From the IMG/VR virus record IMGVR_UViG_3300046471_000259, positions 1 to 47,497 of that record: a DNA stretch of 47,497 nt; one strand, 5' to 3'. The notes under the pieces were generated by a model. The model saw only the letters and a program-made list of their open reading frames with translations. It searched no databases and was not told the DNA's origin. This DNA is from a virus. The position numbers and the translations under genes are program-made. Below, one piece after another: positions 2,972 through 28,166 of the stretch (position 1 is its first letter; each line of letters begins with the position of its first letter).

Positions 2972-3042
2972 AGGTGTATCCGTGTCCCTCTATGCGCTTG
3001 CGGATAATTGCCGTCAAGAGCTAGAGGTGTATTCCTGTTCCT
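2972..3042. repeat. Two 18-base direct repeats between divergent genes
   Basis: AGGTGTATCCGTGTCCCT at 2972-2989 and AGGTGTATTCCTGTTCCT at 3025-3042 match at 15 of 18 positions. They are spaced 53 bases, about five helical turns. They fill the gap between the reverse HTH gene (2768-2950) and the forward gene at 3055, so they look like operator sites for a regulator encoded next to them. Confidence 0.5.
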
Positions 3043-3054
3043 AGGAGTGTCGCC

Positions 3055-3714
3055 GTGTCTAGATTCGCGTTATCGTTCGGGCGGCTTGAGGCTGTTCTGT
3101 CGGCCTATTTCCGCATCGATCCCGAGCGCGGCGGCACTTTTCGTGCGCGGATCAAGCAGTTGCAGCGCTTGAATTTTCCCGGCGGCGTGAATGTTGGCCG
3201 AGGGGTCAAATTCGAGTACGGTCTCGATCATGCGCTGAAGCTGGTAGTTGCGCTGGAATTAATGTCATTCGGCTTGCCAGCCAAGTTTGTGTCAGAACTT
3301 GTTGAGGCAAGCTGGCGGCGCATCGCGATCGCCTTTCAGATATCTCCGATAGGCATGGCTGAGCCGTTCGGCGCGAGTGAAATTTTCGGCAGGTTCAACA
3401 TTGATGTGCTGGGGGATGCGTTTGATCATTCCGATTGCGTTGAAGTATATGATCAAGTCGATTTCCAATTTCATATCGTAAACAAGGGGGAAAATGCCTT
3501 GTTTTTAAACATGACGGCCATATTCAAAAGATTTGTTTCCGTGTTAGACTTAATAAGAATGAAAAATACAACGTTGGGCTTTACTGCAAGAAAATGGGAT
3601 ACAGGTTATCAAACTTTGTCAGAAGAAGTCCCATGGGATATTCCTTGGCTGCATGTTTCTGATGAGCGATTGTCGTACTTTACCCAGTCATATTTTGATA
3701 ACAGTTTTAAGTAG
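3055..3714 (+). CDS. Unknown protein with putative HTH-like N-terminus (219 aa), AT-rich cargo gene
   Basis: Forward gene lying inside the otherwise reverse-strand early operon. It starts at a GTG with AGGAG about 8 bases upstream. Residues ~25-85 (RIKQLQRLNFP, GGVNVGRG, ALKLVVALELMSFGLP) resemble a MerR/HTH-like region I have seen in alphaproteobacterial hypothetical proteins; this is recall, not a computed match. The C-terminal ~110 residues are unfamiliar and the corresponding DNA (about 3430-3714) is clearly richer in A+T than its neighbours, a sign of separate origin. It converges on the small gene at 3718-3840. A cargo gene (moron) or regulator is likely; function unknown. Confidence 0.65.
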   Translation: MSRFALSFGRLEAVLSAYFRIDPERGGTFRARIKQLQRLNFPGGVNVGRGVKFEYGLDHALKLVVALELMSFGLPAKFVSELVEASWRRIAIAFQISPIGMAEPFGASEIFGRFNIDVLGDAFDHSDCVEVYDQVDFQFHIVNKGENALFLNMTAIFKRFVSVLDLIRMKNTTLGFTARKWDTGYQTLSEEVPWDIPWLHVSDERLSYFTQSYFDNSFK

Positions 3715-3717
3715 TTT

Positions 3718-3840
3718 TTACCGCAAGGTTTCTTCCCCGATGGCGGCCGCCTCGGCACGATCATGCAGAATGCCGAGCGCAATGTCGGCAAGCGAGTGGG
3801 CTAATCCGTCGATGCGGGCCTCGCGAGCTTCGGTGCTCAT
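3718..3840 (-). CDS. Small hypothetical protein (40 aa)
   Basis: Short gene beginning MSTEAREARIDGLAHSLADI. Its ATG overlaps the stop of the upstream gene as ATGA, the pattern used throughout this operon, which is the main support. It is helical and acidic/alanine-rich, with no recognisable family. The stop lies 3 bases past the end of the convergent gene at 3714. Confidence 0.5.
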   Translation of the reverse strand: MSTEAREARIDGLAHSLADIALGILHDRAEAAAIGEETLR

Positions 3841-4127
3841 GACGACAGAGCCTCCCCCAGCTCGTCGAGCCGTTCGACCATGATCCTCGCATCCCATTCG
3901 TCGTCATATTCCGGGTCGTTGAACTTCCCGGAACGGTGGTAATCGTGGGCTCGTTCGGCGGCGGCCTCGACGCGGCGCAGGTACGCGACCTCTTCGTCTT
4001 CTTCGGTCACGCGGGCCCGCAGCCCCTCGATCAGCGCAAGCATGGCGTCCAGCAGCGCTGGCGCGGTGCCCGCAGTCTGCGCCTTGACGATCTCGATCGT
4101 CGCTTCGTGCTCGATGGCGCTGGTCAT
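3837..4127 (-). CDS. Hypothetical phage protein (96 aa)
   Basis: Starts MTSAIEHEATIEIVK at 4127, where ATGA overlaps the stop of the preceding gene. A longer frame to 4211 would extend into that gene. The middle is helical (ALLDAMLALIEGLRARV, then EEDEEVAYLRRVEAAAERAHDY) and could form a coiled coil. No family recognised. Early-operon position suggests a non-essential host-interaction role, which is inference. Confidence 0.65.
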   Translation of the reverse strand: MTSAIEHEATIEIVKAQTAGTAPALLDAMLALIEGLRARVTEEDEEVAYLRRVEAAAERAHDYHRSGKFNDPEYDDEWDARIMVERLDELGEALSS

Positions 4128-4946: not shown

Positions 4947-5164
4947 AGTCCGGGCTCCTTCCTCAATGCCCTGCACGGAGCCGGAAGCGTCGACGGCTCG
5001 ATGCCAACGCGAACGGCCTCAAGGCACATCTCTATGTCGGCTGTGTCGGCCACCCGCTTGCTGTTCTCCGCCATGCGGCTGGTGTCGACGCCTATCGCCA
5101 CGAGCGCACCCGTGATGCCGAAGAGGCTCGCGACGATGAAGCCGGTACGATCACTATCGGTCAT
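4943..5164 (-). CDS. Small membrane protein (73 aa)
   Basis: Starts MTDSDRTGFIVASLFGITGA. One transmembrane helix spans about residues 8-26, followed by a soluble tail containing two cysteines (C46 and C63 approximately). ATGA overlaps with the ParB-like gene upstream. No known family; probably an inner-membrane protein anchored by its N-terminus. Confidence 0.6.
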   Translation of the reverse strand: MTDSDRTGFIVASLFGITGALVAIGVDTSRMAENSKRVADTADIEMCLEAVRVGIEPSTLPAPCRALRKEPGL

Positions 5165-6534
5165 GCTGCCTCCTCGGCCGTGGCCGGCACTTCCTCGTAA
5201 GCCATCAGCAAGACCTCCCGCAGCTGGGCGGCGCGATCGTCCCCGCCGCCCTTCGTGGCGCTGAGGAAGCTCGCCCATTCTTTCTGCGCGCGGGTCAGCA
5301 GCGTGCGGAACATTCGGTCGGGGTCGTAGCCTTCGGGCGGGTTGATCGAGAGCTTGGTGAGCGCCGTGAACATGCTCGCGCCCGCGTTCAGCACCTCATC
5401 GGGGAACGCCTCTGCCATGGTGGTGAGCGCCGACGCGCAAATCGCCGCGCCATGCTTGCGAAGCACCTTGGCAATGGCGCTGGTAAAGGCGACCTCGCCA
5501 GGCACCCAGCTTTGCGAGCCGGTCTTGCGCGAGACGGTGAAGCCCGCCTCGGTGATGATCTGCCGGATCTGCAACGCCTCGGCATCGCCGCCGGCGATCG
5601 CCGCGTGGAAATCGTCCAGCCGGTTCATCGGCTTGCGCGCCCGGTTCATGGCGACGAACATCGCCGCCTCGTCCGCGACGCTGCCGTAGACGCCGACGCA
5701 GCAAGGCAGGAACGGGATGTCCCCGCGCAGCTTGGCGGCCGCGAGACGGTGCTGCCCGTCGATCACCCACAAGGTGCCGTCATCACGCTTGGACACGACC
5801 AGCGGCAGGCACATGCGCCAGTCCCAGGTCTGGGCGATCCTCTTGATGAGTGCGATGCTTCCGCCGTTGTCGGTCGACCGCTGATAGCTGTCATCGAGGT
5901 GTAATTCCGACGGGTTGCGGTTCTCGACCGAAGGCGGGTTTCCCTTGGCGACTGGCCATTTTTTAGGGGTGGTGCTCGCCTGGGCGGGCGGCGGGGTGAA
6001 AGCGGCGGATTTCTGCGGCTTTTGGGAGGTGCTGGCACCTTTTCCCGACAGGGTAGAGGGGGTGATTTCCTTCGCTGTCGACTCACTCTGAAATTCGGCA
6101 GATTTCTGCGGGGTTGAGGATGATTTCCCGACCGATTTGCCTGTTTCGATTCGCGCCCCCTGCTGCGCCCTTATCCGGCGCGTGATGTCGTCGGTCACGT
6201 CGTCGCGCGGGGCTACATCTGCCTCGCGCTGCAGGCCCGGTGTGCCTTTATCCAAGGCTCCGTAGGCACCGCTCTCCTTCTCATCCAACTCGGCCAGCAG
6301 CGGGCGAGCCTCAACTGGCGGGCAGGTATACAGCACGCCCTTTCGATCAATGACGATGTTGCCGACGAGAACGCGGGCCTGCACCTTGTCGCTGCCGATC
6401 CTAGTGTGGATCATGAACGTGCCGTTGGCGTCACGCTTGCCCGCCATCTTCGGCTTGATCCAGTCGGCGATGTCGTTCCGGCCCTTGTTGATCCAGGACT
6501 GGACCGTGAGGGTGCCGTTCGGCTGATCGGTCAT
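5161..6534 (-). CDS. ParB-like nuclease-fold protein (DUF6551-like), 457 aa
   Basis: Three parts are visible. Residues 1-90 form a compact N-terminal domain of unknown type. Residues ~130-205 are a low-complexity Ser/Thr/Pro/Lys linker with two copies of a PQKSA-x-F motif. The C-terminal ~250 residues resemble ParB/sulfiredoxin fold proteins, with the hallmark VIDGQHRLAA at residues 257-266 (Asp259-Gly-Gln-His-Arg263). In this fold, DGQHR-type motifs bind nucleotide (CTP or ATP). The start at 6534 is set by an ATGA overlap; an open frame to 6891 overlaps the previous genes. The linker makes it unlike a plain ParB. Role unknown, possibly DNA binding or a host-directed modification. Confidence 0.75.
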   Translation of the reverse strand: MTDQPNGTLTVQSWINKGRNDIADWIKPKMAGKRDANGTFMIHTRIGSDKVQARVLVGNIVIDRKGVLYTCPPVEARPLLAELDEKESGAYGALDKGTPGLQREADVAPRDDVTDDITRRIRAQQGARIETGKSVGKSSSTPQKSAEFQSESTAKEITPSTLSGKGASTSQKPQKSAAFTPPPAQASTTPKKWPVAKGNPPSVENRNPSELHLDDSYQRSTDNGGSIALIKRIAQTWDWRMCLPLVVSKRDDGTLWVIDGQHRLAAAKLRGDIPFLPCCVGVYGSVADEAAMFVAMNRARKPMNRLDDFHAAIAGGDAEALQIRQIITEAGFTVSRKTGSQSWVPGEVAFTSAIAKVLRKHGAAICASALTTMAEAFPDEVLNAGASMFTALTKLSINPPEGYDPDRMFRTLLTRAQKEWASFLSATKGGGDDRAAQLREVLLMAYEEVPATAEEAA

Positions 6535-6779
6535 GACGACTTCCTTCGGGCGGCCTTTACGGCGCTCAGCCGGGCAGCGAGGCGGTCGACCTTCTCGACG
6601 GCTTCGGCGAAATCCTCGGACCACTTCTGATCGCGGTTCGACTTGCGCACCGCGGCCAGCATGGCGCGTTCGCGGGACCACCAGTCCAGCATGATCGTAA
6701 GCCGCAGGGCCTCGCGGCAATCGCTCTGCATGACCGGCTGGCGCGCGCGGTGGAGCGGGAAACGGATCACCTCGCCCAT
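6531..6779 (-). CDS. Hypothetical phage protein (82 aa)
   Basis: Starts MGEVIRFPLHRARQ, a frequent opening of small phage proteins, followed by a long amphipathic helix region (SEDFAEAVEKVDRLAARLSAV) and a basic tail. It overlaps the upstream gene by 13 bases and the ParB-like gene by 4. Function unknown. Confidence 0.65.
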   Translation of the reverse strand: MGEVIRFPLHRARQPVMQSDCREALRLTIMLDWWSRERAMLAAVRKSNRDQKWSEDFAEAVEKVDRLAARLSAVKAARRKSS

Positions 6780-7087
6780 CGTGCGCTCCGGCGCTTGGAG
6801 CGCACGCCCGTGGCGAGCACGATCTTGACCGCGGCTGGTAGGCCCGGCGTGTCGAGCAGTTCAGCCACCAGAACCGTCGCGCAGTCGTCATCTGCGCAGC
6901 CGATCTCCGGATGAAACCACGGATAGATCATACCATCCGTGCCGATGGTGACCGCGCCGCCGATCTTGCCCCAGGCAAGCAGCCAGGCTTCGGCCAGCAA
7001 CGGCGGGGCGGGGGGGCATGACCCCGCCGTTGCTGACACTCCCGCCCAGGGGGCGCCGGCGGGAACTGGATAGGATTGTACGGTCAT
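6767..7087 (-). CDS. Hypothetical phage protein (106 aa)
   Basis: Starts MTVQSYPVPAGAPW at 7087 by ATGA overlap with the upstream stop. The middle reads as a soluble alpha/beta protein with a CADDDCATVLVAELLD segment. No recognised family. It sits in the tightly packed reverse early operon. Confidence 0.6.
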   Translation of the reverse strand: MTVQSYPVPAGAPWAGVSATAGSCPPAPPLLAEAWLLAWGKIGGAVTIGTDGMIYPWFHPEIGCADDDCATVLVAELLDTPGLPAAVKIVLATGVRSKRRSARWAR

Positions 7088-9678: not shown

Positions 9679-10284
9679 CTAAAGTGGCACAAATGCGCCC
9701 CTAGCCATTCCGATCACGGTGAATTGCTCTCGCCCTAGGCTGATCGGCTGGTGCTCTGGGTTCGTTGAGCAGGGTTCCAAGCGCGCTGGGTCAGAGCGAA
9801 AGCGCTTAATCGTCGTCTCGCCCTCGGAGTTCATCACCGCGTAGACCTTGCCTTCCCGAAGGTCGGCCTCGCCCGGGTCAATGACGACATATCCACCGTC
9901 GGGGATAACCCGATCCATGCTGTCTCCCCTGGTGCGAAGGGCGAAGGCCGCCTTGCTCAAACCATCGACAGGCGGGAAAATCATCTCTTCATAATGCTGA
10001 ATGGCTTCACGCCAGTTCCCGGCAGCAATCTCTCCAACCAACGGAATGAGGAAGGGATTAAGCGGCAAATGATCGGCTTGCCCCATGAGTTCGCCGGTCG
10101 GTATCCCAAACGCCTTCGCCAGGCGCTCGATCCAATTGAGGTCCAGCTTCCGCTGTGACTTCTCCAGCTTCATGATCTGCGATGCTGTCGTGCCTGCGCG
10201 GTCCGCTAGCTCCGCCAAAGACCAGCCGCGCTCCGCGCGCAAGGCGCGCACGCGGTTCGGGATCGCTTCGCTCAAATTCGACAT
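9679..10284 (-). CDS. CI-type phage repressor, XRE HTH plus S24 peptidase domain
   Basis: 201 residues. An XRE helix-turn-helix covers residues ~8-62 (WSLAELADRAGTTASQIMKLE). The S24/LexA-like C-terminal domain has the self-cleavage site Ala88-Gly89 (IAAGNW), nucleophile Ser122 (RGDSM) and Lys160 (TTIKRF). RecA-stimulated autocleavage is therefore expected, so the prophage should be SOS-inducible. The ATG at 10284 is preceded by GAGGAA at 6 bases; a TTG one codon upstream is less likely. It is divergent from the Cro-like gene and transcribed in the same direction as the early operon it is expected to repress. Confidence 0.93.
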   Translation of the reverse strand: MSNLSEAIPNRVRALRAERGWSLAELADRAGTTASQIMKLEKSQRKLDLNWIERLAKAFGIPTGELMGQADHLPLNPFLIPLVGEIAAGNWREAIQHYEEMIFPPVDGLSKAAFALRTRGDSMDRVIPDGGYVVIDPGEADLREGKVYAVMNSEGETTIKRFRSDPARLEPCSTNPEHQPISLGREQFTVIGMARGAFVPL

Positions 10285-10312
10285 CAAATGTTCCTCATCA
10301 GATGTCTTCTTT

Positions 10313-10338: not shown

Positions 10339-10353
10339 TGCACAAAATGGACA
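10339..10353. promoter_or_regulatory. Putative operator OR2-like site
   Basis: TGCAC-AAAAT-GGACA. The right half-site is perfect and the left is degenerate. It is spaced 26 bases from OR3 and 31 from OR1. Confidence 0.45.
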
Positions 10354-10361
10354 TAAGGTCA

Positions 10362-10390
10362 TTGCGAGGTGACCAAAACGGACATATGAT
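10362..10390 (+). promoter_or_regulatory. Putative promoter PR
   Basis: TTGCGA (10362-10367), 17-base spacer, TATGAT (10385-10390). The spacer contains a predicted operator, mirroring PL. The expected transcription start is about 10397, directly at the ATG of the Cro-like gene. Confidence 0.55.
10370..10384. promoter_or_regulatory. Putative operator OR1-like site
   Basis: TGACC-AAAAC-GGACA, 9 of 10 half-site bases matching the pattern. It fills the PR spacer, where bound repressor would block RNA polymerase. Confidence 0.55.
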
Positions 10391-10599: not shown

Positions 10600-11997
10600 A
10601 TGCTCGCTAACGTTGAGGCCGAAGCCGCCCTTCTTGGTGCCCTGATGCAGGGCGGCGCCGAGATCATCGACATGGTCGCGGAGCAGCTGAGGCCAGTCGA
10701 TCTGGCTGAGCCTGTGCACGAGCGTATCTACCAAGCCATTCTCGATGGGCACGCGATGGGGAAGCCCGTCACTCCGATCTTACTGAAGCCGCTGTTAGCA
10801 GACGACGAGGGTCTGAAGGCGTTCGGCGGGTTGGCCTACCTTGCTCGGTTGACCGGCGACGGGCAAGGCTTGCTCGCGCCCCGTGAAATAGCTGAGCAGA
10901 TCGCGGACCTTTCGGCGCGACGCAAGATGCAAGCCCGTTTCGCCTCCGCGGCTGGAGCGTGCGCGGACCTGAGCCTCTCCGTTGATGCGATTGCCGCTCA
11001 GGGCGAGATGCCACCCGAGGCGACACCGGGGCTCGACTCTCGCACCTACACACTTGGGCAGGCGTTCGCCGCCGCCAATGACCGCATCGACGACATCGCG
11101 GCGGGGACTATCGCGCAGGGCGTTCGGCTCCATCAGTTGCAGGACTGGGACGACATCACCGGTGGCATGATGCCCGGCGCGTACATCCTCGTCGGCGGCC
11201 GGCCCAGCGCGGGGAAGACCGCCCTGACCCTGTGCGTCTCGCGGCGCGCAGTCATGGCGGGACACGGCGTGCTGTACATCAGTCGCGAAATGGACATCGT
11301 AGAGCTGATGCCACGCATACAGGCGGATATGCTGGCTGAGGCAGGCGGTGAGGCGGGCATGAAGGAAATCCGCGAGGGTCGGCTTTCCGCGCGCGACAAG
11401 GCGCTTCTTCGAGGGATCGAGCGCGAGGTGCAGGACTGGCCGCTGGTCATCATCGACCCGGAGACGTTTAGCGCCGACCAAATCAATCTCGTCATCCGAC
11501 AGCAGGCCCGGCAGTTCGAGCGCCGCGGCGACAAGCTCGACCTAGTCGTCATCGACTACCTGGGGCTCATCGACCCGCCGCCTGGTCGCGTGAACCGGGA
11601 ACAGGAAGTGTCCATAATCAGCAAGGCGATCAAGCACGCTGCGCGCAGTAATCGCATCCCGATCATCGTGCTGTCCCAGCTGAGCCGCGCCGTCGAGCAG
11701 CGCGAGGACAAGCACCCCCAGCTTTCCGACCTCCGCGACAGCGGCACCTTAGAGCAGGACGCCGACATCGTCATCTTTGTGTATCGCGATCAATACTATC
11801 TCGAGCGATCCGAGCCCGATGTCTCCGACGTAAAGCGCCGCCCCAAGTGGGAGGAAGACATGGCCGCGGCGAAGGACAAGATGGAGATTTACTCCGCGAA
11901 GAACCGGCAGGGCGCACTGTGCCGGCGCAAGCCGTGGTTCTTCGGCCGCAACCAGGCTGTGCGAGATCACGACTTCTACCAGCGTGAGGGCTTCTGA
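10600..11997 (+). CDS. DnaB-family replicative helicase
   Basis: 465 residues. An N-terminal DnaB-type helical domain (EAEAALLGALM, AFGGLAYLARL) is followed by a RecA-like motor domain with Walker A GGRPSAGKT (residues 199-207) and Walker B around LVVIDYLGLI. A C-terminal LSQLSRAVEQRED and SGTLEQDADIVIFVYR are characteristic DnaB motifs (H3/H4 region). It would unwind the phage origin as a hexamer. It is coupled to cro (1-base gap) and to the DUF1376 protein (TGATG overlap). Phages encoding their own helicase usually need only a loader and the host primase/polymerase. Confidence 0.95.
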   Translation: MLANVEAEAALLGALMQGGAEIIDMVAEQLRPVDLAEPVHERIYQAILDGHAMGKPVTPILLKPLLADDEGLKAFGGLAYLARLTGDGQGLLAPREIAEQIADLSARRKMQARFASAAGACADLSLSVDAIAAQGEMPPEATPGLDSRTYTLGQAFAAANDRIDDIAAGTIAQGVRLHQLQDWDDITGGMMPGAYILVGGRPSAGKTALTLCVSRRAVMAGHGVLYISREMDIVELMPRIQADMLAEAGGEAGMKEIREGRLSARDKALLRGIEREVQDWPLVIIDPETFSADQINLVIRQQARQFERRGDKLDLVVIDYLGLIDPPPGRVNREQEVSIISKAIKHAARSNRIPIIVLSQLSRAVEQREDKHPQLSDLRDSGTLEQDADIVIFVYRDQYYLERSEPDVSDVKRRPKWEEDMAAAKDKMEIYSAKNRQGALCRRKPWFFGRNQAVRDHDFYQREGF

Positions 11998-13070
11998 TGT
12001 CGGAGGCGCTTCCCGATCCCCTGACGCCTGCTGAGTGCGATCTGCGCGACTTCTCACGGCTGATGATCGACATCACTCGCCTGTTTTCGTCCACGTTTAA
12101 TGCGAAGGCGTCGAAGAACCCGCTCGCATGGATGATCGGCCATAAGCTCTGGTATCGAAGCTGGCATCAAGTGCCTGCGGCATCACTGCCCGACGACGAT
12201 GAGGAGCTTTGCTACCTCTCGGAGATGGGCTTCGACTTGAAGTCGTTCGCGAAAGCGAAGCCTCTTGCCATGCACGGCTGGGTCAAGTGCGCCGACGGTC
12301 GCCTTTATCATCCGGTGGTTGCTGAAGCCGCTCGGGACGCCTGGCAAAGCAAGCTTAGGCGCAAGCACAGCACCGAGTGCGCACGCATCAAAAAACACAA
12401 CCAGCGGCACAAAACCGAGCATTCAATGCCGACATTCGAGGACTTTCTGGCCGGCGGTTGTCAGCCGGTCACGTTGGACACACTTCGAGACACGCGACAG
12501 AAGTCCCCAGGCTGTCCATCGGGACAAGAGGGGCTGTCCCCAAGGACAACGAGCGATGTCCCTCGGGAAAACACCTCCAAGGGAAAGGGAGAGGGAAAGG
12601 GAGATTCTAATAGTAGTGCTACGCACTCGTCGATTAGCGATGCTAATCTCCCGGTCCCCGTGTTCCTACCAGCCGTGACCGACGCGCCTGACGATGTCCA
12701 GGTGGCGTTCGAACGCCACGACATGGTGCGCCGCGAATTCGTGCCGAACGCCCGCGCCGTCGATCTCAGTCCCGACCGCAAGCGGAAGCTTGGCACCCGG
12801 CTCAAGGAGATCGGCGGCATCGGTGGCTGGGACGAGGTCCTGTCCATCATCCGCGCATCGCCGTTCCTGCGGGGTGACACATCTCGTGATGGGTTCGTAG
12901 CCAAGATCGACTGGCTGCTCGCGCCCGCCAACCTCCGCAAGGTCCGAGAAGGAAACTACGATCATGACGAAAGCGACCAGCATCACCTTGGCCGGAGCAA
13001 CAGCCGCAGCTTTCCCCGGAGCCCCATCGATGGCATCCTTGCCGCCCACGCTGGCCGAGACCCTGACTGA
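11997..13070 (+). CDS. DUF1376-like replication initiator protein with embedded origin
   Basis: 357 residues. The N-terminal ~120 residues match the DUF1376 pattern (W-hK-WYRSW, VPAASLPDDDEELCYLSEMG, then DGRLYHPVV), a winged-helix domain seen in phage replication proteins. A Gln/Ser/Lys-rich linker (residues ~160-215) is encoded by DNA with three 22-base-spaced iteron-like palindromes and a purine tract. The C-terminal part (LSPDRKRKLGTRLKEIG, FLRGDTSRDGFVAKIDWLLAPANL) resembles the C-termini of DUF1376/DnaD-like proteins. The layout parallels lambda O. Overlaps: 1 base with the helicase gene, ~107 bases with the next gene. Confidence 0.82.
   Translation: MSEALPDPLTPAECDLRDFSRLMIDITRLFSSTFNAKASKNPLAWMIGHKLWYRSWHQVPAASLPDDDEELCYLSEMGFDLKSFAKAKPLAMHGWVKCADGRLYHPVVAEAARDAWQSKLRRKHSTECARIKKHNQRHKTEHSMPTFEDFLAGGCQPVTLDTLRDTRQKSPGCPSGQEGLSPRTTSDVPRENTSKGKGEGKGDSNSSATHSSISDANLPVPVFLPAVTDAPDDVQVAFERHDMVRREFVPNARAVDLSPDRKRKLGTRLKEIGGIGGWDEVLSIIRASPFLRGDTSRDGFVAKIDWLLAPANLRKVREGNYDHDESDQHHLGRSNSRSFPRSPIDGILAAHAGRDPD
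12513..12652. other. Putative phage replication origin (iterons, purine tract, hairpins)
   Basis: Three copies of TGTCC-N4-GGACA/GGAAA start at 12513, 12535 and 12557, exactly 22 bases apart. They are followed by 26 consecutive purines (12579-12604). A nested inverted-repeat region comes next: GTGC/GCAC at 12616-12626, GATTAGC/GCTAATC at 12632-12648, and an outer GGGAGATT/AATCTCCC pair at 12599-12606 and 12645-12652. It lies in the linker-coding part of the initiator gene, as in lambdoid phages. Repeats and spacing are seen; origin function is inferred. Confidence 0.6.
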
Positions 13071-16559: not shown

Positions 16560-16780
16560 AATGTCTACTTTGCGTAATATTCCGTCTTTTCGCGCAACAT
16601 TAATACGCGCATCATTATTACGTCATGGTTAAAACTGGCGTAACATTGTTTCGCGTAATAATGTTGCTTCATATTGGTCTTTTGGGTCCTTCCTGCCCCC
16701 TCACGCATCGAGGGTATTGCGCGCCCCGATGTCGCGGTAGCTCCAGCCCCTAAAAGTTGGTTGTCGGTTGTCGGTTGTCG
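16560..16780. other. AT-rich, repeat-containing cos-like region
   Basis: Non-coding stretch upstream of the small terminase gene, as in lambda. Four short repeats are visible: GCGTAATATT (16572), GCGCAACATT (16592), GCGTAACATT (16638) and GCGTAATAAT (16653). An inverted copy AATGTTGC (16660-16667) matches GCAACATT (16594-16601). A tandem 7-mer GGTTGTC x3 lies at 16759-16779. Lambda cosB has gpNu1-binding R sites and IHF sites here, so these are candidate terminase/IHF sites. The exact nick site is not identifiable by eye. Confidence 0.55.
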
Positions 16781-16792
16781 GAAGGAGCGGCC

Positions 16793-17404
16793 ATGGGCTT
16801 GTTGTCGGTCTCCGCCTACGCCGCGACGCACGGCGCTTCGAAACAGGCCGCCGCGAAGTGGAAAGCCCGAGGATTACTGGTTCTCAGCGGCGCGCTCGTT
16901 GATGTCGCCGCCTCCGACGCGAAGATGAAAACGGCGGCGATGGGCCGCTTCAAGATTGCAAAGCCGGGCGCCGCGAAGCACCAGCCGAAGGTCCGCGCGG
17001 TTGACGCGCCCCTGGTTGACCCGGTTGTCGCTGGTGCCGGCGAAGAGGTTGACGAGGCGGCACTCGGCCAGTTCGCCGAGCAGCTGCTGCAGGGCCAGTT
17101 CGCATCGATCGCGATCGCCACCCAGGTGAAGGAAAATGCCCTCGCCCTGAAGCACCTCGTCGCGGCGCGCATCGCGGCTGGCGCGGTGGTCGAGATCGAG
17201 GTGGCCGAAACCGTGCTGTTCGAAATGGCGCGGCAGCAGCGGGATGCATGGATGAACTGGCCCAGCCAGATCGCCCCGCTCCTGGCCACCGACCTCGACC
17301 TCGAAGCAGATCGGGTGCTGGAGGCGCTGACGCAATATGTCCAGCAGCACCTCCAGCAGCTCGGAGAGCCCAAGCCCGACTTCAACGTCGAACGAGAAAG
17401 CTGA
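16793..17404 (+). CDS. Terminase small subunit (gpNu1-like)
   Basis: 203 residues, with ATG preceded by GGAAGGAG. The N-terminal segment VSAYAATHGASKQAAAKWKARG is a winged-helix-type DNA-binding motif (MerR/Nu1-like), followed by a long Ala-rich helical region and a C-terminal acidic helix near LTQYVQQHLQQLG that would contact the large subunit. It is directly upstream of, and overlaps by 68 bases, a GpA-type large subunit. It would recognise the adjacent cos-like repeats. Primary sequence is divergent, so the call leans on motif and position. Confidence 0.82.
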   Translation: MGLLSVSAYAATHGASKQAAAKWKARGLLVLSGALVDVAASDAKMKTAAMGRFKIAKPGAAKHQPKVRAVDAPLVDPVVAGAGEEVDEAALGQFAEQLLQGQFASIAIATQVKENALALKHLVAARIAAGAVVEIEVAETVLFEMARQQRDAWMNWPSQIAPLLATDLDLEADRVLEALTQYVQQHLQQLGEPKPDFNVERES

Positions 17405-25897: not shown

Positions 25898-27379
25898 GTG
25901 ACCATCAACTTCAACAGCATCCCGGCGAACCTGCGCGTACCGCTGTTCTACGCGGAACTCGACCCGACTTACGCCAATACCACCGCGGAAGATCAGCGCG
26001 GCCTGCTGGTCGGCCAGATGACGGCGTCCGGCACTTACGCCCCCGGCGTGCCGGTCCGGCTGACCTCGAAATCGGACGGCATCGTCGGCGCTGGCGCTGG
26101 TTCGGTGCTCGCGCAGATGATCGAGGCATGGCGCGACAACGACGATAGCGGCGAGGTCTGGGTCCTGCCCGTCTCCGACGCCGGGTCCGCGACCGCCGCG
26201 ACCAGCACTGCGACCGTCACCGGCACTGCCACGGCAGCGGGTTCGATCCCCCTCTACGTCGGCGGCAAGCTCGTGTCGGCCGCCGTGGCGGCTGGCGACA
26301 CCGCCGCAGTCGTGGCGGCGAGCATCGTTACGGCAATCACCGCAGCCGGGGTCGCGGCTACCGCCGCCGCCGCGCTGGGCGTCGTCACTCTCACGGCGCG
26401 CAACAAGGGCACCGTCGGCAACGAGATCGACGTGCGCATGGCCTTCAAGGGCACGGCGGGCGGCGAGGTCCTGCCGACGGGGATCACGATTGCGATCGTC
26501 GCCATGACCGGCGGCGCGACTGACCCGGTGCTGACCACGCCGATCGCGGCGCTGGGCGACAAGACCTTCGACTTCATCGTCTCGGGTCTGAACGGCACCA
26601 CGGCGCTGGACGCGCTCAAGGGCCTGCTGTCCGACAGCGCGGGCCGCTGGTCGCCGATGCAGCAGCTATACGGCCACGTCTTCACGGCGATGCGCGGGAC
26701 GGCGGGCACGCTCGCTGCGTTCGGCCTGGCACGCAACGATCAGCACCTCTCGATCGTCGGCTTCACCGATTCGCCTTCGCCCTACTGGATCTGGGCCGCG
26801 GCGATCGCTGCCAAGGCGTCGGTCAGCCTGCGCGCTGACCCCGGCCTCCCGCTCCAGTACCTTGCGGTCGCGAGCATCCTCGCGCCGCCGATCGCATCGC
26901 GCTTCCCGATCACGGTGCGCAACGCGACGCTGCTCTACAACGGCATCTCGACCTGGTCGGTGAATGCCGCGGGCGCGGTCGTGATCGAGAACATCGTCAC
27001 GACCTACGTGACCAATGCGCAGGGCAACAGCGACAACTCGTATCTCGAAGTCGAGACGATGTTCCTGCTGATGTACGTGATCCGCTTCATGCGGGCGCGC
27101 ATCCAGAGCAAGTTCGGCCGCATGAAGCTGGCGGCGGACGGCACGCGCGTCCCCGCCGGCAGCAACGTCGTCACGCCGTCGTCGATCAAGGCCGACCAGA
27201 TCGCGGCGTACCGCGAACTGGAGGAAGGCGGCTTCGTCCAGAAGGCGGACGCGTTCGCCGCGAACCTGATCGTCGAGAAGGACCCGACGAACCCCAACCG
27301 CGTCAACGTGCTCTGGCCGGGCACCTTGATCAACCAGCTGCGCATCTTCGCCATGCTGGTCCAGTTCCGGCTGAATTGA
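25898..27379 (+). CDS. Contractile tail sheath protein (Mu gpL-like)
   Basis: 493 residues from GTG 25898, with AAGGAG about 9 bases upstream. Mu-type sheath signatures: INFNSIPANLRVPLFYAELD at the start, PLQYLAVASILAPPIASRFP, and a C-terminal MYVIRFMRARIQSKFGRMKLA with a final TLINQLRIFAMLVQFRLN. It forms the contractile sheath, so the phage is a myovirus. An Ala/Thr-rich insertion at residues ~95-170 is typical of the family's surface domain. Confidence 0.93.
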   Translation: MTINFNSIPANLRVPLFYAELDPTYANTTAEDQRGLLVGQMTASGTYAPGVPVRLTSKSDGIVGAGAGSVLAQMIEAWRDNDDSGEVWVLPVSDAGSATAATSTATVTGTATAAGSIPLYVGGKLVSAAVAAGDTAAVVAASIVTAITAAGVAATAAAALGVVTLTARNKGTVGNEIDVRMAFKGTAGGEVLPTGITIAIVAMTGGATDPVLTTPIAALGDKTFDFIVSGLNGTTALDALKGLLSDSAGRWSPMQQLYGHVFTAMRGTAGTLAAFGLARNDQHLSIVGFTDSPSPYWIWAAAIAAKASVSLRADPGLPLQYLAVASILAPPIASRFPITVRNATLLYNGISTWSVNAAGAVVIENIVTTYVTNAQGNSDNSYLEVETMFLLMYVIRFMRARIQSKFGRMKLAADGTRVPAGSNVVTPSSIKADQIAAYRELEEGGFVQKADAFAANLIVEKDPTNPNRVNVLWPGTLINQLRIFAMLVQFRLN

Positions 27380-28041: not shown

Positions 28042-28166
28042 GGCCTCTCGACTGGCGCCGTAGGCTCGTGATCCTCGGCCGCATGTTCGGCAAGCTGCCA
28101 GATGAAGTCGCGACGCGGCCCTGGTCTATCCTAAACCAATGGCTGGAGTGGTCGGATGGTGGATGA
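27757..28166 (+). CDS. Tail assembly chaperone, -1 frameshift product (136 aa)
   Basis: Ribosomes reading CGT TTT TTG at 28027-28035 can slip -1 on T TTT TTG. After the slip the frame continues GGA CTA AGG and stays open to TGA at 28164-28166, adding 43 residues (LDWRRRLVILGRMFGKLPDE, then WSILNQWLEW). The extension overlaps the tape-measure start at 28156. Phage P2 uses the same heptamer for E/E+E'. The Trp-rich C-terminal extension in this position is the usual design for long tail chaperones. Confidence 0.82.

Follow-up and report, generated by a model that had tools for sequence, protein, structure and literature searches.

A probable replication origin of helically spaced dyad iterons within the DUF1376-like initiator gene of a temperate phage

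The 47,497-base stretch of viral DNA analysed here (IMG/VR record IMGVR_UViG_3300046471_000259, positions 1 to 47,497; hereafter the window) carries a short array of palindromic repeats in the middle of a gene for a DUF1376-like replication protein, and this segment is very probably the replication origin of the phage, lying inside the gene of its own initiator. An earlier note, made from the letters of this DNA, had proposed an iteron-like origin in the replication gene, by analogy with the lambda origin in O. The proposal is now supported by the arrays of relatives, by matches of the protein to initiator and helicase-loader families, by the adjacent gene for a DnaB-like helicase and by a control on lambda itself. 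The array is far beyond chance, and more than 100 related viruses, as judged from their sequences, keep its helical spacing while the sequence of the iterons changes.

The iteron array in the window

Three dyads of the TGTCC-N4-GGACA/GGAAA type start at 12513, 12535 and 12557 with a period of 22 bases, exactly as had been claimed (Table 1). The perfect TGTCCN4GGACA occurs twice in the window, both times in the array. That such regular spacing is improbable by chance, as the earlier note held, is borne out by a three-dyad statistic, which combines the dyad symmetry of three equally spaced sites with their mutual similarity and has a maximum of 35. The array scores 33, compared with a maximum of 28 and a mean of 22 among 1000 codon-synonymous, protein-preserving shuffles of the gene, and a maximum of 27 among second-order Markov versions of the whole window. 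Position 12513 with a spacing of 22 base pairs (bp) is the top-scoring place in the window, all other places reaching at most 27. As a step of 22 bp shifts the reading frame, each of the three iterons is read in a frame of its own and the array cannot come from a repeated peptide. Upstream of it, a weak outlying dyad lies 46 bp, i.e., two 23-bp steps, 5' of iteron 1, and 44-46 bp is a frequent step in relatives; the half-site AGTCC stands 11 bp 5' of iteron 1, and steps of 11 bp also recur in relatives.

A helical lattice among relatives

Relatives were collected with a profile of the N-terminal domain, which gave 412 viral contigs, and with a Pseudomonas phage query, which gave 410 (the overlap of the two was not determined). 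One relative (L011), 76% identical, is found in Novosphingobium panipatense P5:ABC. Of the 67 linkers in the first non-redundant set, 54 contain a (GGGAVA)n tract, and the DNA 5' of the tract in these 54 linkers has internal repeats at distances of 11, 22, 23, 34-35, 44-46 and 55-58 bp, with almost none between. For most distances the codon-shuffle null of these linkers gives no more than about one locus, but its numbers are larger at 33 and 45 bp, both of them multiples of 3. Where dyads could be paired explicitly, they are 22 bp (8 cases), 23 bp (44), 33-35 bp (12) or 44-45 bp (21) apart, so that the 22-base period proposed earlier describes the window and is not fixed in relatives, where it is 22 or 23. 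The last dyad starts exactly 24 bp 5' of the tract in 37 of the 42 loci that have such a site, and its right arm usually reads ..GAAA. The dyad TGTCCN4GGACA is found 66 times in 65 kilobases (kb) of initiator genes versus once in 575 kb of flanks.

A further 65 non-redundant relatives use other half-sites, including TGTCAC, ATCCC, CGCCCCCC, TGCC, GTAAC and GAAACG. Their linkers, taken alone, exceed the codon-shuffle null in the same comb, at 11-12, 22-24, 33-36, 45 and 55-57 bp, and repeats at 16-20, 25-32 and 37-43 bp are few. Coding periodicity may account for some of the signal at 12, 24 and 36 bp in this set, but it cannot be the source of that at 11, 22, 23, 34 and 35 bp. Since the spacings of the lattice are mostly not multiples of 3, selection would have acted on the DNA rather than on the peptide. 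The repeats, whose absence from related phages the earlier note had set against its own reading, are thus present there, in the same place and with the helical spacing kept. The array and the tract stand at the same place in named phages, including phi297, Burkholderia phage Magia, Solano and Alize, and the array accompanies this initiator in contigs of differing genome content.

Two observations concern single relatives. The linker of L094 holds units like GGATAGCTCTATGCACAGTTCTAT in tandem, in an array whose 24-bp period is clearly a multiple of 3. In Pseudomonas phage vB_PaeS-D14L (L103, near 2992-4005) and Solano (L105, near 3001-4023), the frame of the N-terminal domain extends 5' of the annotated initiator; in the deposited annotation the initiator starts too late or a gene on the opposite strand has been placed there.

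Purine tract, AT-rich patch and hairpins

The all-purine run that the earlier note saw downstream of the array has the stated length of 26 bases, and it carries a G3N3G3N3G3N3G3 motif on the coding strand. Among 126 non-redundant loci, at least three such hexamers are present on the coding strand in 80 and on the opposite strand in none. The reading frame of the hexamers in these 80 loci is frame 2 in 64, frame 0 in 14 and frame 1 in 2, and they translate as GQGQ, TGTG or RERE in different relatives. Being read in three frames and as differing peptides, the hexamers appear to be conserved as DNA and not as peptide. The repeat length is not always six, since in the linkers of L197, L199 and L201 a 5-bp repeat, (CCAGA)n, stands in for the hexamer tract at the same place. 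Distant relatives (L108 and L109, from Achromobacter and Shewanella phages, and L110) have other hexamers, ACCGGA or GATACA, at the position of the tract; L110 differs from phi297 (L102) in its N-terminal domain and shares with it the C-terminus and the AGTCCTACTGACGTAGGACT hairpin. A G-quadruplex was considered as the common denominator of these tracts and rejected as not general, its motif being found in 60 of the 126 loci (3 on the other strand) and missing from linkers with GATACA or ACCGGA repeats.

Directly 3' of the purine run lies an AT-rich patch, a candidate unwinding element. Over 55 loci the ten bases that follow the tract have an A+T fraction of 0.69-0.77; the fraction is lower on both sides, at about 0.25-0.47 upstream and, beginning 20 bp downstream, at 0.24-0.41. 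The window thus has an A+T-rich, strand-biased putative opening region beside its iterons, as a lambda-type origin does, although the tract itself, unlike that of lambda, is G-rich. Of the three nested inverted repeats reported earlier, the repeats are real but not strictly nested: they are mainly two adjacent perfect hairpins and a longer pair of imperfect arms. The segment 12605-12660 folds as single-stranded DNA with a z-score of -3.2, none of 200 shuffles being equally stable. As a universal part of the system, a hairpin after the AT-rich patch was rejected, since it is strong in the window but significant in only 11 of the 55 loci.

The initiator protein and its neighbourhood

The array sits in the low-complexity linker of the protein, as had been noted. 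The match to PF07120 (DUF1376), at 21.5 bits over residues 49-110, falls under the curated cut-off of 30.1 bits, and we therefore call the protein DUF1376-like instead of a DUF1376 protein. Residues 4-141 match phrog_22470 (replication protein, 3.8e-33), residues 148-326 match phrog_345 (replication initiation, O-like, 7e-14) and residues 256-336 match phrog_10469 (DnaD-like helicase loader). The gene is taken to be that of a replication initiator on the strength of the C-terminal matches to the lambda-O-like and DnaD-like families of helicase loaders; it is with this C-terminal half only that the protein matches the O-like family.

The AlphaFold2 model of the N-terminal domain has the order of elements of a winged helix (helices at 42-56, 68-74 and 81-91, strands at 63-65 and 102-104, and a long helix at 106-142). 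Compared with predicted viral structures, the domain finds DUF1376-annotated proteins at E-values of 1.1e-13 and 1.4e-12 (template-modelling scores 0.82-0.91) and, weakly, the N-terminal domain of phage replisome organisers (0.019). A sequence search against solved structures found nothing. The type of iteron tracks the N-terminal domain: where these domains are identical to 85% or more, the iteron type is shared in each of the 121 typed pairs, which are not independent of one another. There are also natural chimeras, such as L060 and L177, which are 93% identical in the C-terminus and 57% in the N-terminal domain and have different iteron types (TGTCC and CGCCCC); the linkers are recombination joints between the N- and C-terminal modules.

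The window belongs to a temperate phage whose tail is contractile: the terminase lies at 17337, the tail sheath at 25898 and the tape measure, followed by baseplate genes, at 28156. Its rightward early operon holds the DnaB-like helicase gene and the initiator gene, which overlap by one base (11997). Two other observations were made in the window: the minus strand encodes at 5161-6891 a 576-residue protein with a ParB-like region (phrog_1033, 1.4e-17) and DUF6551, and the heptamer GGTTGTC is perfectly repeated 3.3 times at 16759-16781, at the start of an open frame (16757-17404) just 5' of the terminase.

Table 1. Features of the putative origin and of the genes around it (positions in the window)
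Feature	Position	Strand	Remarks
S24-type repressor gene	9679-10287	-	
Phage DnaB-like replicative helicase gene	10600-11997	+	PF03796 3.6e-62, PF00772 1.5e-16, phrog_19 1.6e-73
Replication initiator gene	11997-13070	+	357 amino acids; DUF1376-like N-terminal domain, low-complexity linker, O/DnaD-like C-terminal domain
N-terminal domain	12009-12425	+	predicted winged helix-like, candidate iteron reader; AlphaFold2 predicted local distance difference test (pLDDT) 92.6
Weak outlying dyad, GGTCACGTTGGACA	12467-12480	+	2 mismatches to TGTCCN4GGACA
Half-site AGTCC	12502-12506	+	
Iteron 1, TGTCCATCGGGACA	12513-12526	+	TGTCC-N4-GGACA-type dyad
Iteron 2, TGTCCCCAAGGACA	12535-12548	+	TGTCC-N4-GGACA-type dyad
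Iteron 3, TGTCCCTCGGGAAA	12557-12570	+	degenerate right arm; start 24 bp 5' of hexamer tract
Purine run, AA(GGGAAAGGGAGA)2	12579-12604	+	26 bases
AT-rich patch, TTCTAATAGTAGT	12605-12617	+	candidate unwinding element
Hairpin AGTGC-TAC-GCACT	12615-12627	+	perfect
Hairpin GATTAGC-GAT-GCTAATC	12632-12648	+	perfect
Longer inverted-repeat arms	12593-12606 / 12645-12658		imperfect

Alternative explanations and points against an origin

The dyads could be operators through which the protein itself or the phage repressor controls the replication operon, the true origin lying elsewhere. Dyads of 14 bp about 23 bp apart would suit repressor operators as well, and two copies of AAAAYGGACATAWG (10344-10357 and 10375-10388), which lie 31 bp from each other in the stretch separating the repressor from the gene after it, are likely operators. 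These copies have only GGACA in common with the iterons, however, and the full TGTCCN4GGACA dyad is absent from the repressor control region and from the window outside the array. Moreover, the array lies mid-gene and not at a promoter, and operators would not need the fixed purine tract and AT-rich patch that follow the array in relatives. We consider this explanation improbable, but autoregulation may come on top of an origin function. A scan of the window for tandem repeats, any other array being a competing candidate for the origin, gave only short or coding-type repeats elsewhere.

Two further explanations are more improbable still. The pattern might be a by-product of the linker, whose dipeptide repeats and slippage-prone DNA would then have no function at the DNA level; indeed, the linker is of low complexity and its hexamers encode dipeptide repeats (KGKGEGKG). 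Yet neither 22 nor 23 bp is divisible by 3, shuffles that preserve the codons fail to yield the array, and the same hexamers encode different dipeptides in different relatives while never occurring on the opposite strand. A peptide repeat as the cause is rejected in view of the frame-breaking spacing together with the codon shuffles, and the wider by-product explanation is very unlikely. Equally unlikely is a centromere-like partition site, a packaging site or a recombination site inside the gene. Centromere-like sites do have phased inverted repeats as well, the window encodes a ParB-like protein (5161-6891), and the linkers are recombination joints between the two protein modules; against this, the array stays with the initiator across differing genomes, is confined to the initiator gene in the fetched stretches, and as a partition or packaging site would need no location in that gene.

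Several observations weigh against the reading of the segment as an origin, or against parts of it. The cumulative GC skew of the window is flat, gives no origin signal and is uninformative as a marker. The hexamer tract is short, different or absent in some relatives, and BLAST with three queries recognised a helicase or loader in only 10 of the 72 stretches fetched, some of which are short. The fold of the N-terminal domain matches solved structures weakly, the hits being MarR, CRP and a plasmid initiator (best E-value 0.28), none of them a firm relative. When specificity residues were sought in the recognition helix, the differences between iteron types proved to be scattered across the domain and entangled with phylogeny. 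Finally, the co-segregation of iteron type and N-terminal domain could come from physical linkage alone, both lying on the same side of the swap point. As linkage could give the same result and the pairs are not independent, we only infer that the N-terminal domain binds the iterons.

Proposed mechanism and significance

If the segment is an origin, replication would start at the array by protein binding, strand opening and helicase loading. The DUF1376-like, winged-helix N-terminal domain would bind the dyad iterons, which, being spaced by multiples of about 11.3 bp, would all face the same side of the helix, and the array would wrap into an O-some-like complex. The wrapped array would strain the DNA just downstream, so that the AT-rich patch past the hexamer tract opens, possibly helped by transcription through the initiator gene; the C-terminal O/DnaD-like domain would then recruit the DnaB helicase encoded next door. 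It is possible, though we suggest it tentatively, that these loci form a class of origins conserved in geometry and not in sequence, with at least six half-sites on one 11.3-bp lattice, typically 24 bp from the tract. The tract would be an active element of such origins, turning transcription into strand opening either as a G-quadruplex or R-loop of the non-template strand or as a hexamer track for single-strand binding, comparable to DnaA-trios.

The assignment provides a testable function, that of replication initiator, for the DUF1376-like domain, a widespread domain of unknown function, and would place the origin of a large and mostly uncultured group of temperate phages. It is also a case of a protein-coding stretch that seems to be shaped by the helical geometry of DNA, and the natural swaps of half-sites are material from which rules of recognition could be learned. 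Should the strand-specific tract have a function, it would couple transcription to the opening of the origin in a way that has not been described for lambda. In the literature searched, which covered open-licence papers and not subscription journals, we found no report of the DUF1376-like origin assignment, of the helical lattice kept across sequences or of the strand-fixed hexamer tract.

Comparison with known systems

In Pseudomonas phage MD8, repeats inside the O-like gene gp56 were noted by the authors (PMC8508860). The likeness to the array described here lies in the placing of repeats inside an O-like gene; helical spacing is not mentioned in the passages found, and the string DUF is absent from that paper. 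DnaD-like phage replisome organisers (Phage_rep_org_N, Lin1244/Lin1753-like) share the predicted structure of the N-terminal domain, and the C-terminus of our protein matches the DnaD-like loader family; they differ in the low sequence similarity of the N-terminal domain, and the structural matches are modest, with E-values of 0.019 and weaker. Iteron plasmids such as P1, F, RK2 and pSC101 have helically phased initiator sites beside an A+T-rich opening region (PMC5043065), and phased sites adjoin such a region here too. Plasmid-type iterons, however, are direct repeats outside the Rep gene, whereas the phage sites are dyads within the initiator gene, and the Pfam scan gave no plasmid Rep domain.

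The closest comparison is with lambda, whose origin lies in the middle of O; its dyad iterons bind O dimers, an adjoining 40-bp A+T-rich region opens, and transcription activates the origin (PMC5043065, PMC7466680). From start to start, the annotated iterons of lambda are separated by 20, 24 and 23 bp, and the script used here finds repeats in O at 20, 23, 44 and 47 bp. Both systems have multiple dyad iterons, with a spacing of about 20-24 bp, in the middle of the initiator coding sequence, and in both a purine-biased opening region, putative in our case, and an inverted repeat come after them. In both, the initiator consists of an N-terminal DNA-binding part and a C-terminal helicase-recruiting part, in our case encoded beside a helicase gene, with the fold predicted and the functions assigned by family match. 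The differences are that the N-terminal domain is DUF1376-like, that the iterons are shorter (14 bp, with TGTCC half-sites) and stand on a 22/23-bp helical lattice, that a G-rich hexamer tract lies between the iterons and the AT-rich patch, and that the phage encodes its own DnaB, with no relative of lambda P seen beside it. Because position, dyads, approximate spacing and the downstream opening region agree, the segment with high probability works like the lambda origin, as a distinct variant of the same kind. The lambda-type intragenic origin is a textbook kind, and the DUF1376-like variant is distinct within it.
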